58,690 nucleotides of DNA, taken from NCBI GenBank assembly GCA_029979505.1, contig JAPOHH010000007.1, forward strand, positions 1-58,690, read 5' to 3'. The notes beneath the pieces are model-generated. The model did no database searches. It was not told where the DNA came from and saw only the letters and a program-made list of their open reading frames with translations. Position 1 is the stretch's first letter. Each line of letters begins with the position of its first letter. A program made the position numbers and the translations under genes. Below are positions 23,204 to 38,804 of this stretch, one piece after another. This stretch comes from a bacterium (lineage in GTDB: Bacteria; Pseudomonadota; Gammaproteobacteria; GCA-002705445; GCA-002716945).

Positions 23204-23248
23204 GAGTCTAAGTATTATTTTTAAAACTATTAAAACAAGGAGTTAATT

Positions 23249-24010
23249 ATGAGGAATATTATGTCTTATGTATTCTCATTATTATTCGTAGTTTCTATGC
23301 CTTCAGTAGCACTAGCTGGAGACTTGCAAGCGAATGATTTTGTTGGAGTTACATTTTGGATAATTTCAATTTCCATGGTGGCAGCTACTTTGTTCTTTTT
23401 TTCTGAAAGATCAAGGGTTTCACCTAAATGGCAAACATCATTATCTGTAATCTCATTGGTAACGTTGATTGCTGCAGTACATTATTTCTATATGAGAGAT
23501 GTATGGGTAAGTACAGGAGAATCACCAACAGTATTTAGATATATTGATTGGATATTAACTGTACCTCTGCAAATGATTGAATTCTACTTAATACTAGCTG
23601 CTGTTACTACAGTTAGTGTTGGTGTCTTTAACAGATTATTAGTTGGAACACTTGTCATGCTTATAGGTGGATATTTAGGTGAAGCGGGAGTCATATCTGC
23701 AATGCTTGGATTCATCATTGGGATGGCAGGCTGGCTTTATATTCTATATGAAATATTTATGGGTGAAGCCGGACAGAAAAGTATGTCATGCGGAAGCGTG
23801 GGTGCACAAATGGCATTTAACGCATGTCGTATGATCGTATTGGTAGGTTGGGCTATCTATCCACTTGGATATCTATTTGGATATTTAATGGGTGGTGTAG
23901 ATGCTGCAAGCTTAAACCTAGTCTATAACCTTGCTGATTTTGTAAACAAAATCGCATTCGGTGTGTTTATCTGGGCAGCTGCTGTAGCAGATTCTTCAGA
24001 AACAGCTTAA
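23249..24010 (+). CDS. Proteorhodopsin, blue-tuned light-driven proton pump
   Basis: The 253 residues comprise a signal peptide (about 1-23, cut after ALA) and seven membrane helices. The offset from the reference protein is +3. Asp100 (Schiff-base counterion), Thr104 and Glu111 (proton donor) form the DTE set of a proton pump. His78 pairs with the counterion, and retinal binds Lys234 in ADFVNKIAFG. The spectral-tuning residue is Gln108 (PLQMIEFY), as in blue-absorbing types. AAGGAG lies 6 bases before ATG. The retinal-making genes follow directly. Confidence 0.98.
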   Translation: MRNIMSYVFSLLFVVSMPSVALAGDLQANDFVGVTFWIISISMVAATLFFFSERSRVSPKWQTSLSVISLVTLIAAVHYFYMRDVWVSTGESPTVFRYIDWILTVPLQMIEFYLILAAVTTVSVGVFNRLLVGTLVMLIGGYLGEAGVISAMLGFIIGMAGWLYILYEIFMGEAGQKSMSCGSVGAQMAFNACRMIVLVGWAIYPLGYLFGYLMGGVDAASLNLVYNLADFVNKIAFGVFIWAAAVADSSETA

Positions 24011-24027
24011 AAAAACTTACAACTTTG

Positions 24028-24053
24028 TACAAGGAGCGCTTGCGCTCCTTGTA
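24028..24053. other. Perfect 11-bp inverted repeat between proteorhodopsin and crtI
   Basis: TACAAGGAGCG at 24028-24038 is followed by the loop CTTG and then CGCTCCTTGTA at 24043-24053. As RNA it forms a strong hairpin after the proteorhodopsin stop, but no U-run follows, so it is not a textbook terminator. As DNA it ends at the TATAAT 6 bases before crtI and could be an operator. It may set the ratio of opsin to pigment enzymes. Confidence 0.75.
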
Positions 24054-24057
24054 TAAT
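24052..24057 (+). promoter_or_regulatory. -10 box of a possible leaderless crtI promoter
   Basis: TATAAT stands exactly 6 bases before the crtI ATG, and no Shine-Dalgarno is present. It overlaps the end of the inverted repeat. No good -35 is visible at 16-18 bases, so this is a hypothesis supported mainly by the same spacing at dnaN and the ArsR gene. Confidence 0.45.
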
Positions 24058-24063
24058 ATCTAA

Positions 24064-25533
24064 ATGAAAAAAGCAATTGTGATAGGCTCAGGCTTTGGTG
24101 GACTTGCTATTGCCTGTAGACTCAGGGCAATGAACTATGCAGTTACCGTACTTGAAAAACAAACTAATTTAGGTGGAAGAGCGAGAACCCTTAGCCATAA
24201 CGGTTTTGATTATGATGCTGGACCTACTGTCATTACAGCCCCATACCTAATTAATGAGCTTTTTGAACTATTAGATGAAAATTCTAGAGATTACTTTAAT
24301 TTACTTAAAGTGGAGCCTTTTTACAGATTTTTATTTCATGATAATACCTATTTTGATTATGGCTCCTCTTTAAAAACTATGCTTAATGAAATCAGTAGGA
24401 AGTATTCTAAAGAGGATTCATACGGTTACATTAAACTACTTAAGCATTCGAAAAGAATATTCAATACGGCATATTTGAAATTGTCTGACTATCCTTTTGA
24501 ATCGATTTACAGTATGACTCCGTATATACCTGAATTACTAAGAATACAGTTTTATAAATCAGTGCATTCGTCTGTTAAAGATTTTCTTAAAGACACTAAT
24601 CTCATTAAAGCGCTTAGCATGCATCCACTCTTAGTTGGAGGTAATCCATATACAACTACATCTATATACTTGCTTATTCAATATCTTGAATGGAAGTGGG
24701 GTGTGTATTATGCAGAAGGCGGTACACGCTCTATTGTTTATGGATTTGAAAAGTTATTCAAAAAGAAAGATATTAACTACCAAACAAATTGTGAAGTATT
24801 GGAAATTGAAGAGTATAAGAAAAATATCAAAAAAATTCATACAAATAATGGTACATATGAATCTGATTTGGTAGTCAGTAATGCGGATCCATCCTATTTT
24901 TATCAATCAATTTTAAAAAGAGCGCCTAAAAAAATCTTCAATAAAAGCTTTATGTTAAAGCACTCTATGGGCTTATTTGTTTTATATTTTTCCACAAAGA
25001 AACACTATAGTGATGTTAAACATCATACAATTATATTTAATAAAAGACACAAAGATTTACTTGATGATATTTTTGATAAAAAAGCTTATATAACTGATCC
25101 TAGTTTATATCTTCATAGACCAGCTGCTACTGATAAAAAAAATATACAAAAAAACTCTGATTCATTTTATGTTTTAGCACCAGTTGCTAATAATGAAAGT
25201 GTAATTAATTGGGATGAGAAAGGTGAGGAATTTTCCAATCATATTATCAATATACTCTCAGAAAAAATACTACCCAACCTCAAAGACAGCATCATAGATA
25301 AATTCTATGTAACACCGAATTACTTTGAAACAGATTTAAACTCTTTTAAAGGCAGTGGGTTTGGTATACAGCCAATATTTAGACAATCCGCATATTTTAG
25401 ATACTCCAATAAATCTAATGAGCTTGATAATTTATATTTTGTCGGGGCTGGAAGCCACCCCGGTGCAGGTGTTCCTGGTGTAATCTCATCTGCAAAAGTT
25501 ACAGAAAAGCTTATACTTAAATATGATGCTTAG
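24064..25533 (+). CDS. crtI: CrtI, phytoene desaturase
   Basis: CrtI is a flavoenzyme that introduces double bonds into phytoene to make lycopene. The 489 residues begin with the dinucleotide-binding loop GSGFGGLAIACRL, then LGGRA and DYDAGPTVIT. The C-terminal carotenoid-desaturase segment is FVGAGSHPGAGVPGVISSA. It is the first of four overlapping genes crtI-crtB-crtY-blh downstream of proteorhodopsin, and its end overlaps crtB by 11 bases. Confidence 0.95.
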   Translation: MKKAIVIGSGFGGLAIACRLRAMNYAVTVLEKQTNLGGRARTLSHNGFDYDAGPTVITAPYLINELFELLDENSRDYFNLLKVEPFYRFLFHDNTYFDYGSSLKTMLNEISRKYSKEDSYGYIKLLKHSKRIFNTAYLKLSDYPFESIYSMTPYIPELLRIQFYKSVHSSVKDFLKDTNLIKALSMHPLLVGGNPYTTTSIYLLIQYLEWKWGVYYAEGGTRSIVYGFEKLFKKKDINYQTNCEVLEIEEYKKNIKKIHTNNGTYESDLVVSNADPSYFYQSILKRAPKKIFNKSFMLKHSMGLFVLYFSTKKHYSDVKHHTIIFNKRHKDLLDDIFDKKAYITDPSLYLHRPAATDKKNIQKNSDSFYVLAPVANNESVINWDEKGEEFSNHIINILSEKILPNLKDSIIDKFYVTPNYFETDLNSFKGSGFGIQPIFRQSAYFRYSNKSNELDNLYFVGAGSHPGAGVPGVISSAKVTEKLILKYDA

Positions 25534-26350
25534 TTCTACTAAATATATTTTAAAACAAAATAGTAAGACTTTTTATATTGCATCTTTATTCCTTCCAAAG
25601 AATATTAAAAAGAAAGTTTTGTCAGTGTATGCATTTTGTAGACTTTATGATGATAATGTAGATCATGAACGTTCAGTTAACACATTAGATTTAGAAAAAA
25701 AAGTTTTAGGCTTTGGCATAGAAAAGAAAGTTGTTGATCAGCTTAAGGAAGGAATTGATTCAGACATGTATTCTAATAGAATATCATCCACTGGAGATTT
25801 ATTAAATTACTGTTATAAAGTAGCAGGGTGTGTCGGCATTATGATGTGTGATGTACTCAACATCAATGATAGAAGAGCTAAATATCATGCAATTGATTTA
25901 GGCATTGCGATGCAAATTACAAATATTTGCAGAGATATCAAAGAGGATTTTTCTATAAATAGAATATATTTACCTAAAGATAAAATATCTAAAAGTGAGA
26001 TGATAGAGAGAGATCAGGAAAAATTATTCATAGCCACATGTGATTTAATTGCTTTGTCAGATAAATATTATGAAAGTGCTCTGGAAGGAATAAAATACAT
26101 TCCGTTTAATACAAGATTTTCTATTTTATTTGCACTTTACATGTATCAAGAAATTGGTATTAAAATCAAGAGAAACAAAAAAAGATTCCTGGACAAAAAA
26201 CCAAATACCACAAAAATTGATAAGTTGAGAGTATTTACAAAGACTGTATTTATTTTCTTATATAAATATTTGCTGTGCAGTCCAAAGGATCATAACCACT
26301 TACTTCATTCTTCTTTGAAGGGATTACCCAATATACATGAAAGTCTATGA
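25523..26350 (+). CDS. crtB: CrtB, phytoene synthase
   Basis: CrtB joins two geranylgeranyl diphosphates into phytoene. The 275 residues have the two Mg-diphosphate sites of squalene/phytoene synthases: DDNVD at 43-47 and NICRDIKED at 134-142. Overlaps with crtI (11 bases) and crtY (14 bases) imply one coupled message. No crtE (GGPP synthase) lies in the cluster, so its substrate must come from elsewhere. Confidence 0.94.
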   Translation: MMLSSTKYILKQNSKTFYIASLFLPKNIKKKVLSVYAFCRLYDDNVDHERSVNTLDLEKKVLGFGIEKKVVDQLKEGIDSDMYSNRISSTGDLLNYCYKVAGCVGIMMCDVLNINDRRAKYHAIDLGIAMQITNICRDIKEDFSINRIYLPKDKISKSEMIERDQEKLFIATCDLIALSDKYYESALEGIKYIPFNTRFSILFALYMYQEIGIKIKRNKKRFLDKKPNTTKIDKLRVFTKTVFIFLYKYLLCSPKDHNHLLHSSLKGLPNIHESL

Positions 26351-27458
26351 TATCGTTATAATAGGAGCAGGATGCGCAGGACTTAGTCTTGCTTATAGAT
26401 TAATTAACAGATCATACAAAATATGTATTATTGAAAATAAATCGATTACAAACAGGATTAGAAAAACATGGTCCTATTGGAATACATACTCTCACCCATT
26501 TAAGCATTTAGAAAAGTATACCAACAGCAAATTATCCATTCATCATAAATGCTCAACAACTATACTTGATTGTTCTGAGCATAATTATTCTAGTATAGAT
26601 TCTTATGATTTTGATAATTACATTCTTAGAAAGATTGATGAGTGCCCAAATATAGAAATAATGTTTGATACACAAATAAAAGAAGTTGTACCTGCTGGCA
26701 GTCAATACAATATTAATCTTGATAGAGAAACAATATGTGCAAAATATGTTTTTGATAGTAGGCCAAATCATCAGACAATTCAGATGAAGCAAACATTTAA
26801 AGGACTATTCGTAAAGTTTGATAGGCCTATAGAAGATTTTACTAGTCAACTTATGGACTTCAGTGAGAAAAATGAGTTTCATTTTTTCTATTGTCTCCCG
26901 ATGGGAGATAATACGTATTTGTTTGAATCAACATATTACACTGGATTAAAAAAAGATAAAAATAACATGACAGACGAAATTCACAATTATATTAATAAAA
27001 AATATTCTGTTAAGTACTCTGTTGTAAGAGAAGAATATGGAGAAATTCCATTGTCTACAAATGTAAAAATAAACAAAAAGAGCTCAAACTATCTAAACAT
27101 TGGTATTCCATCGGGCTCTACGAGAGCCTCTACTGGTTATACATTTTTAAATATTCAGAAACAAGCAGATGAATATATAAAGAAACTAAACGGCCAAACA
27201 TATATTGAATATCCAAGTACATTGAAAAATAAAATTTTAAGAAAAATGGATAATGTTCTTTTGCAAATAATAAAATGCCAGCCTATTGATAGCAAATATA
27301 TCCTTTATAAAATGTTTGAATGTAATGACAGTAATAGAGTTATAAGATTTTTATCAGAAAAGCCGTCATTATTAGATATTATAATAATTATTTGGAATAT
27401 GCCTAAATTGATATTTATAAAATATGCTTTTAAATCATTTACAACAAAAAATATATAA
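26337..27458 (+). CDS. crtY: CrtY, lycopene beta-cyclase
   Basis: CrtY closes both ends of lycopene to make beta-carotene. The 373 residues start with the FAD/NAD-binding loop IIGAGCAGLSLAYRL and contain the cyclase segments KTWSYWNTYSHPF and GSTRASTGYTF. No hydroxylase or ketolase gene is nearby, so beta-carotene probably goes straight to retinal. It overlaps both neighbours. Confidence 0.93.
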   Translation: MKVYDIVIIGAGCAGLSLAYRLINRSYKICIIENKSITNRIRKTWSYWNTYSHPFKHLEKYTNSKLSIHHKCSTTILDCSEHNYSSIDSYDFDNYILRKIDECPNIEIMFDTQIKEVVPAGSQYNINLDRETICAKYVFDSRPNHQTIQMKQTFKGLFVKFDRPIEDFTSQLMDFSEKNEFHFFYCLPMGDNTYLFESTYYTGLKKDKNNMTDEIHNYINKKYSVKYSVVREEYGEIPLSTNVKINKKSSNYLNIGIPSGSTRASTGYTFLNIQKQADEYIKKLNGQTYIEYPSTLKNKILRKMDNVLLQIIKCQPIDSKYILYKMFECNDSNRVIRFLSEKPSLLDIIIIIWNMPKLIFIKYAFKSFTTKNI

Positions 27459-28326
27459 AAAATATCAACTGATATTATTGATGAATCTAAGCATTATTAG
27501 CTTGTTATTGATGATTGTTTCCCCAACCACTCTGAGCATTAATGTACAGCTTATACTTCTTTTAATCACTGTCACCATTATTGGAATACCACATGGTTAT
27601 TTTGATTTCTTAATTGCTAAGAAACTATTTTGTAATTATGATAATTGGCTTTTTAAATTTATCTTTGTATACACATCTTTATCGCTTATTTATTTGTTAG
27701 TCTGGTATATATCTCCAGCTGTAGCTCTGGCAATATTTCTGATTATGTCTATGTATCATTTTGGTATAGAAGAAACTGAAGATGTCGAAAATAATAACAA
27801 TTTAATGATACTATATTTAGGTAGTGTTCCAATTATTGTTCCTATTTTATTCCATACTCATGAAGTTTTTTACTTTTTTGATATATTACTTAATGAACAA
27901 ATTCTATTTAAAAGCAATTTTTACTTTTTAAAATTTGGTTATTGTGGTGGACTAATAGTTCTGTTACTTCTCAAATTAAGAAGACTATTGCCATTGTATG
28001 GATTACTGCTTGTTAATTTTATTTTCTTACCACCATTATTATCATTTATATTGTACTTTTGTTTTCATCATTCTATTAGGCATTACTTACATGCATTGGG
28101 TGATAGTAATATATATACTAATCAGATTAGTATTATGAAGTTTGCTATTATCTTTTTAGTACTAACAATATTTTTTACTGCAACAGTACTGTTGTACATG
28201 TCAGAGTTTTCAAACATGGCTTTTGAAAATATAGTCATTAAATATATTTTCATTACGCTTGCATGTCTCACTTTACCTCATCTACTGCTAAATATAATTT
28301 ATGAAAATGAAATGAATATGAAGTAA
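27424..28326 (+). CDS. blh: Blh, beta-carotene 15,15'-dioxygenase
   Basis: Blh cleaves beta-carotene into two retinals, the chromophore of proteorhodopsin. This 300-residue multi-pass membrane protein shows the family's iron-binding histidines: PHGYFD (His57), MYHFG (His112) and FHHSIRHY (His215, 216, 220). ATG 27424 lies 35 bases inside crtY. ATG 27481, after the crtY stop, is the alternative, and neither has a clear Shine-Dalgarno. Confidence 0.93.
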   Translation: MLLNHLQQKIYKKYQLILLMNLSIISLLLMIVSPTTLSINVQLILLLITVTIIGIPHGYFDFLIAKKLFCNYDNWLFKFIFVYTSLSLIYLLVWYISPAVALAIFLIMSMYHFGIEETEDVENNNNLMILYLGSVPIIVPILFHTHEVFYFFDILLNEQILFKSNFYFLKFGYCGGLIVLLLLKLRRLLPLYGLLLVNFIFLPPLLSFILYFCFHHSIRHYLHALGDSNIYTNQISIMKFAIIFLVLTIFFTATVLLYMSEFSNMAFENIVIKYIFITLACLTLPHLLLNIIYENEMNMK

Positions 28327-28408
28327 TGCTAAATTAGATTATTCTAATATTATTATCATAGTTGATTTTATTTTTTAAAAGAAGATACTCAGATTAGAGA
28401 GGTTTTAA

Positions 28409-28480
28409 ATGGTCTTATCAATTATAGCTTTTGTACTTTTAATGTGGCTATTTTGTTGTGGCTTTAAAAGTAAAAAATAA
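28409..28480 (+). CDS. 23-residue hydrophobic peptide upstream of acs
   Basis: This short frame reads MVLSIIAFVLLMWLFCCGF followed by a Lys-rich end. It is a single membrane helix with a positive tail on one side. GAGAGG lies 7 bases before ATG, and a possible promoter (TTGATT 28362-28367, GATACT 28384-28389) precedes it. The acs start is 30 bases downstream. The ribosome site and membrane-helix composition favour a real small protein or a leader peptide, but nothing else proves it. Confidence 0.5.
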   Translation: MVLSIIAFVLLMWLFCCGFKSKK

Positions 28481-28510
28481 ATATATTTTATACGGAAATT
28501 AGCTTTTAAT

Positions 28511-38777: not shown

Positions 38778-38804
38778 ACACACCGCCTTATTAAGGCGGT
38801 GTGT
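38778..38804 (-). terminator. Hairpin between glnA and glnL
   Basis: A 12-bp perfect stem (ACACCGCCTTA-type arms, 38778-38789 and 38793-38804) with a short loop lies just after the glnA stop. Downstream of it on the minus strand only three U's occur before the glnL start. It probably acts as a partial terminator or mRNA stabiliser, so that glutamine synthetase is made in excess of the regulators. Confidence 0.65.

Follow-up and report, generated by a model that had tools for sequence, protein, structure and literature searches.

Proteorhodopsin is presumably needed in large excess over the enzymes that produce its retinal, which raises the question of whether a hairpin between the opsin gene and the pigment genes could set that ratio. 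The window (the whole stretch of DNA that we analyzed, 58,690 nucleotides) holds such an arrangement, with the following features:

23237..23242, + strand: AAGGAG, a strong Shine-Dalgarno sequence 6 nt before the opsin ATG, conserved in the genus
23249..24010, + strand: proteorhodopsin gene, 253 aa, Pfam PF01036
24011-24063, + strand: opsin-crtI gap, 53 nt, from the opsin stop at 24010 to the crtI start at 24064
24028-24053: 26-bp inverted repeat with 11-nt arms and a CTTG loop, TACAAGGAGCG-CTTG-CGCTCCTTGTA
24025..24056, + strand: intercistronic RNA hairpin of 14 predicted pairs with a CUUG loop and no U-tract
24052..24057, + strand: TATAAT overlapping the 3' arm, judged not to be a promoter
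24064..25533, + strand: crtI, phytoene desaturase-like, 489 aa, without a Shine-Dalgarno sequence, its ATG 7 nt past the hairpin
25523..26350, + strand: crtB, phytoene synthase, PF00494, overlapping crtI
26337..27458, + strand: crtY, lycopene cyclase, PF05834, overlapping crtB
27424..28326, + strand: blh, beta-carotene dioxygenase, PF15461, overlapping crtY

Because the genes from crtI to blh overlap one another, the opsin-crtI gap is the operon's only gap. Downstream of blh, the operon's last gene, no clear terminator was found (window 28327-28510).

The 26-bp inverted repeat with 11-bp arms and a 4-base loop that a preliminary description of this DNA had reported is real, and as RNA it gains three further pairs (G·U, U-A and U-A) to give the 14-pair hairpin. 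That the repeat fills the gap, as was also said there, is slightly generous, the stem taking up 32 of the 53 nt; we agree that no U-run follows (the tail is UAUCUAAAUG) and that the repeat overlaps a TATAAT 6 bases before crtI. The MFE is -23.2 kcal/mol for an 81-nt context, against -10.5 +/- 2.6 for shuffles (z -4.95, 0/200), and -21.3 for the gap alone (z -7.5, 0/500 shuffles). Against a genome background of 152 co-directional gaps of at least 20 nt, obtained with a simple ORF caller from a sample of 857 kb (93%), the hairpin ranks second by strength. A search of the 917-kb genome that allowed up to 3 mismatches found the palindrome nowhere else, and an Rfam search of the window returned one tRNA only, with no match above the gathering score at the hairpin.

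The preliminary description had proposed a comparison of related clusters for compensatory changes in the arms, and had named arms not conserved in relatives as the outcome that would speak against its reading. An opsin search across the family located the opsin-crtI junction in 17 genomes from three genera (g1, which is the window's genus, g2 and g6). All 17 have a hairpin of 11-14 pairs in a gap of 45-58 nt, and the arms are kept by compensation. Each of the 13 distinct gaps tested folds beyond its shuffles (0/500). The arm sequences diverge strongly (ACAAGGAGCG, ACAGGGAGCG, TATAAGGGGCTA, ACATGGGGCTCT, ACATAGGGCTCT, CACACGGGAGTT), and loop length ranges from 3 to 6 nt. When the 14 distinct stems were aligned, two-sided changes were seen at 12 of the 14 pairs (matched by 0/500 shuffles), with 34 compensatory cells against 10 +/- 2 in shuffles (0/500). 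The covariation score is 0.482 against 0.190 when shuffled (0/500), with slid-partner controls at or below 0.185; although these shuffles ignore the relatedness of the genomes, chance is an unlikely explanation in view of the slid controls and of how many different pair types occur. Since the arms have been rewritten with compensation, what is conserved at this junction is, on this comparative evidence, an RNA shape and not a DNA sequence, the latter turning over. A wobble-pair strand test (G·U vs A·C) on the stems had only few cells. A mini-ORF (TTG...TAA) ending just before crtI was considered and rejected, as it is seen in the genus but not kept in L008. In one member of the family (genome G015, L098) the usual opsin is replaced by another, with 45-49% identity, and no crtI was found at that locus.

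The same turnover bears on a second proposal of the preliminary description, that the repeat, with a -10 box beside it, is an operator switching crtIBY-blh apart from the opsin. Here a light or pigment regulator, for example a class II LitR/CarH homologue, would act on a crtI promoter at the TATAAT. LitR/CarH-type sites have the form T(G/A)TACA-N12-TGTA(C/T)A, and the outer arms of the hairpin, TGTACA-N18-TGTATA, resemble such half-sites (TGTACA-N12-TGTAYA) (PMC9758184). The genome also encodes a LitR/CarH-like light-regulator homologue (L163:2991-4127), which was placed in class II by eye, the B12-binding histidine motif being missing. However, the spacing is 18 and not 12, and g2 and g6 have lost the half-sites even though 24 of 25 family genomes retain the regulator, opsin-less ones among them. 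No intergenic N12 site occurs in the 857 kb; the single N12 match there falls within the coding sequence of a polyprenyl synthase-like gene. As a sigma-70 promoter for crtI the TATAAT was rejected: it has no -35 at 16-18 nt, no listed promoter uses it, and as a -10 box it is changed to TATTAT or lost within the genus and absent outside it. The operator idea fails because the genome has no second such site and relatives do not keep its sequence. Compensation pair by pair, with loops of 3-6 nt, is also more in keeping with RNA, and we consider an operator very improbable.

The tail after the stem bears on a further alternative, a leaky intrinsic terminator or attenuator at which polymerase would pause and a fraction would stop despite the poor U-tract, so that fewer reach crtI. 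The stem has the GC-rich character of an intrinsic terminator hairpin, and the hairpin is absent from the list produced by a terminator scan. Tails in g1 are UAUCUAAAUG or similar, and most of those in g2 are also U-poor. The g6 tails vary, and some members have a U-rich UUUUAUUUU at which termination could occur; in some relatives the hairpin may therefore act mainly by partial termination. In the sister family (f40), which has crtI in the same place, an ordinary U-tract terminator follows the opsin gene; a more distant opsin-crtI locus (L110) has an ordinary terminator with a U-run, and the same holds for 66 of 71 other opsin loci, most of them from SAR11. Hairpins downstream of opsin genes are therefore very common. 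The opsin terminators of the sister family, SAR11 and SAR116 stand in the same place as the opsin-crtI stem, with a similar stem size and often a G-rich left arm, and common descent of these stems is plausible. Those terminators have U-runs, whereas the window's genus, judging by its tails, keeps the stem without the part needed for termination. In favour of attenuation are the canonical terminators that f40 and L110 have in this position ahead of crtI, the partly U-rich g6 tails and the moderate terminator that separates glnA from glnL in E. coli (PMC9731577). Against it stand the window's own tail, the U-runs of 6-8 in other terminators of the same genome, and the fact that the stem has been kept and the U-tract has not. 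On balance, we regard attenuation as an unlikely main role.

The position of the stem relative to crtI suggests yet another role, in translation, whereby the hairpin would block or shape ribosome loading on crtI, or bring the opsin stop nearer to the crtI start for re-initiation. No Shine-Dalgarno sequence precedes crtI in the window or in the family gaps, the start lies 7 nt past a stem whose 5' arm buries an AAGGAG, and the stem abuts the start codon both in g1 and at the glnA-ntrB junction described below. However, relatives do not conserve the buried AAGGAG (they have AGGGAG, AAGGGG or TGGGGC), and the distance from stem to start varies, at about 7-19 nt. Control of translation as the main function thus seems quite improbable to us.

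The reading that we prefer, at a probability of roughly two in three, is an intercistronic hairpin that protects the 3' end of the opsin mRNA, possibly with weak termination, and keeps that mRNA above crtIBY-blh. Going by the gene layout, opsin, crtI, crtB, crtY and blh would be transcribed together, and the hairpin would form just past the opsin stop codon. RNase E-type cleavage within the crt part, which would be poorly translated, would strip off the 3' half, and 3'-to-5' exonucleases such as PNPase would halt at the hairpin. The crtIBY-blh mRNA would decay, and a stable mRNA for opsin only would remain. Some polymerases may also halt there, and the stem would probably add low crtI translation, since it ends 7 nt before a crtI start that has no Shine-Dalgarno sequence. 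The net result would be much opsin and little enzyme from one promoter. Blocking of decay appears to be the best reading because the hairpin is conserved, lies in the operon's only gap and lacks a U-run, because there is precedent in E. coli, and because RNase E/G and PNPase genes are present in the genome. By eye, no RNase E consensus (RN|WUU) was seen between the hairpin and the crtI start, which counts against this reading. The locus shares the marks of the puf and malE type, namely a stable hairpin after the upstream gene of a putative operon, no U-tract (in g1 and most of g2) and compensatory changes. A processing or partial-termination hairpin that lets opsin exceed the enzymes, as first suggested for this repeat, fits all of the evidence, including conservation by compensation, and at the level of sequence that suggestion is well supported.

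The opsin-crtI hairpin is not the only one of its kind in this genome. Hairpins at or below -13 kcal/mol occur in 16 of the 152 co-directional gaps. The ordinary ones end in U-runs (L133, L101, L145 and window 56281). Short gaps with U-poor hairpins lie between opsin and crtI, glnA and ntrB, pstS and an aquaporin-like gene, ftsH and an unknown gene, a YgaP-like and an unknown gene, and a dinB-like and a litR-like gene. Three of these are located as follows:

38778..38804, - strand: U-poor glnA-ntrB intercistronic hairpin, of the same kind as the opsin-crtI one
L142:2785-2822: U-poor hairpin downstream of pstS; the aquaporin-like gene that follows it has pstS on one side and a pstC-like gene on the other
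L151:1266-1307: strong U-poor hairpin of 13 pairs, in the gap that separates a small YgaP-like gene from an unidentified one

The glnA and pstS junctions are textbook sites at which the first gene is made in excess (for glnA, PMC9731577). The glnA-ntrB hairpin, whose stem abuts the ntrB start codon, recurs in 21 of 23 genomes of the family, its arms rewritten and usually with no U-run after it; the pstS hairpin is kept in part among the family genomes, and the ftsH stem is imperfect. We would tentatively raise the possibility that U-less hairpins kept by compensation, a small set located behind opsin, glnA and pstS, are a general means of setting protein ratios inside the operons of this streamlined marine lineage. 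The opsin hairpin would then have come from an ordinary terminator by loss of the U-tract, with the stem still under selection.

In the open-access literature searched, we found no report of a hairpin or terminator between proteorhodopsin and crtI. In Vibrio, a different organism, the opsin was quantified and no protein time courses of the retinal-synthesis enzymes were detected (PMC9040609). Among E. coli gene pairs with a stabilised first gene, 26 of 34 end the stabilised segment at a stable hairpin without a U-tract, and in the model proposed there the hairpin blocks 3'-to-5' exonucleases after RNase E has cut in the less translated part (PMC5927463). Similar to the opsin-crtI junction, malEFG and other differentially decaying E. 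coli operons have a stable hairpin with no U-tract right after the 5'-most gene; the opsin-crtI hairpin differs in being single and short and in being kept by compensation across a family. The moderate terminator between glnA and glnL of E. coli appears to stabilise the glnA mRNA (PMC9731577). The enteric hairpin follows an abundant first gene, as the opsin-crtI hairpin presumably does, and the window's own glnA-ntrB junction has a hairpin too; the enteric one, however, has a U-tract and a separate glnL promoter, whereas the hairpins of the window's lineage are mostly without a U-tract. The closest likeness in setting is to puf of Rhodobacter (pufBA followed by pufLMX), whose intercistronic hairpin is a decay terminator according to the accounts of Chen 1988 and Klug 1987 cited in PMC5927463 and PMC11354728. 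In both puf and opsin-crtI, a hairpin lies within a light-energy operon whose first product is needed in excess. The puf photosystem is, however, a different and unrelated one, and the likeness is one of arrangement. A stabilising hairpin in a proteorhodopsin operon would add to the known kind of intercistronic stabilising hairpins, and would parallel, in an unrelated photosystem, the classic puf hairpin of bacterial photosynthesis.
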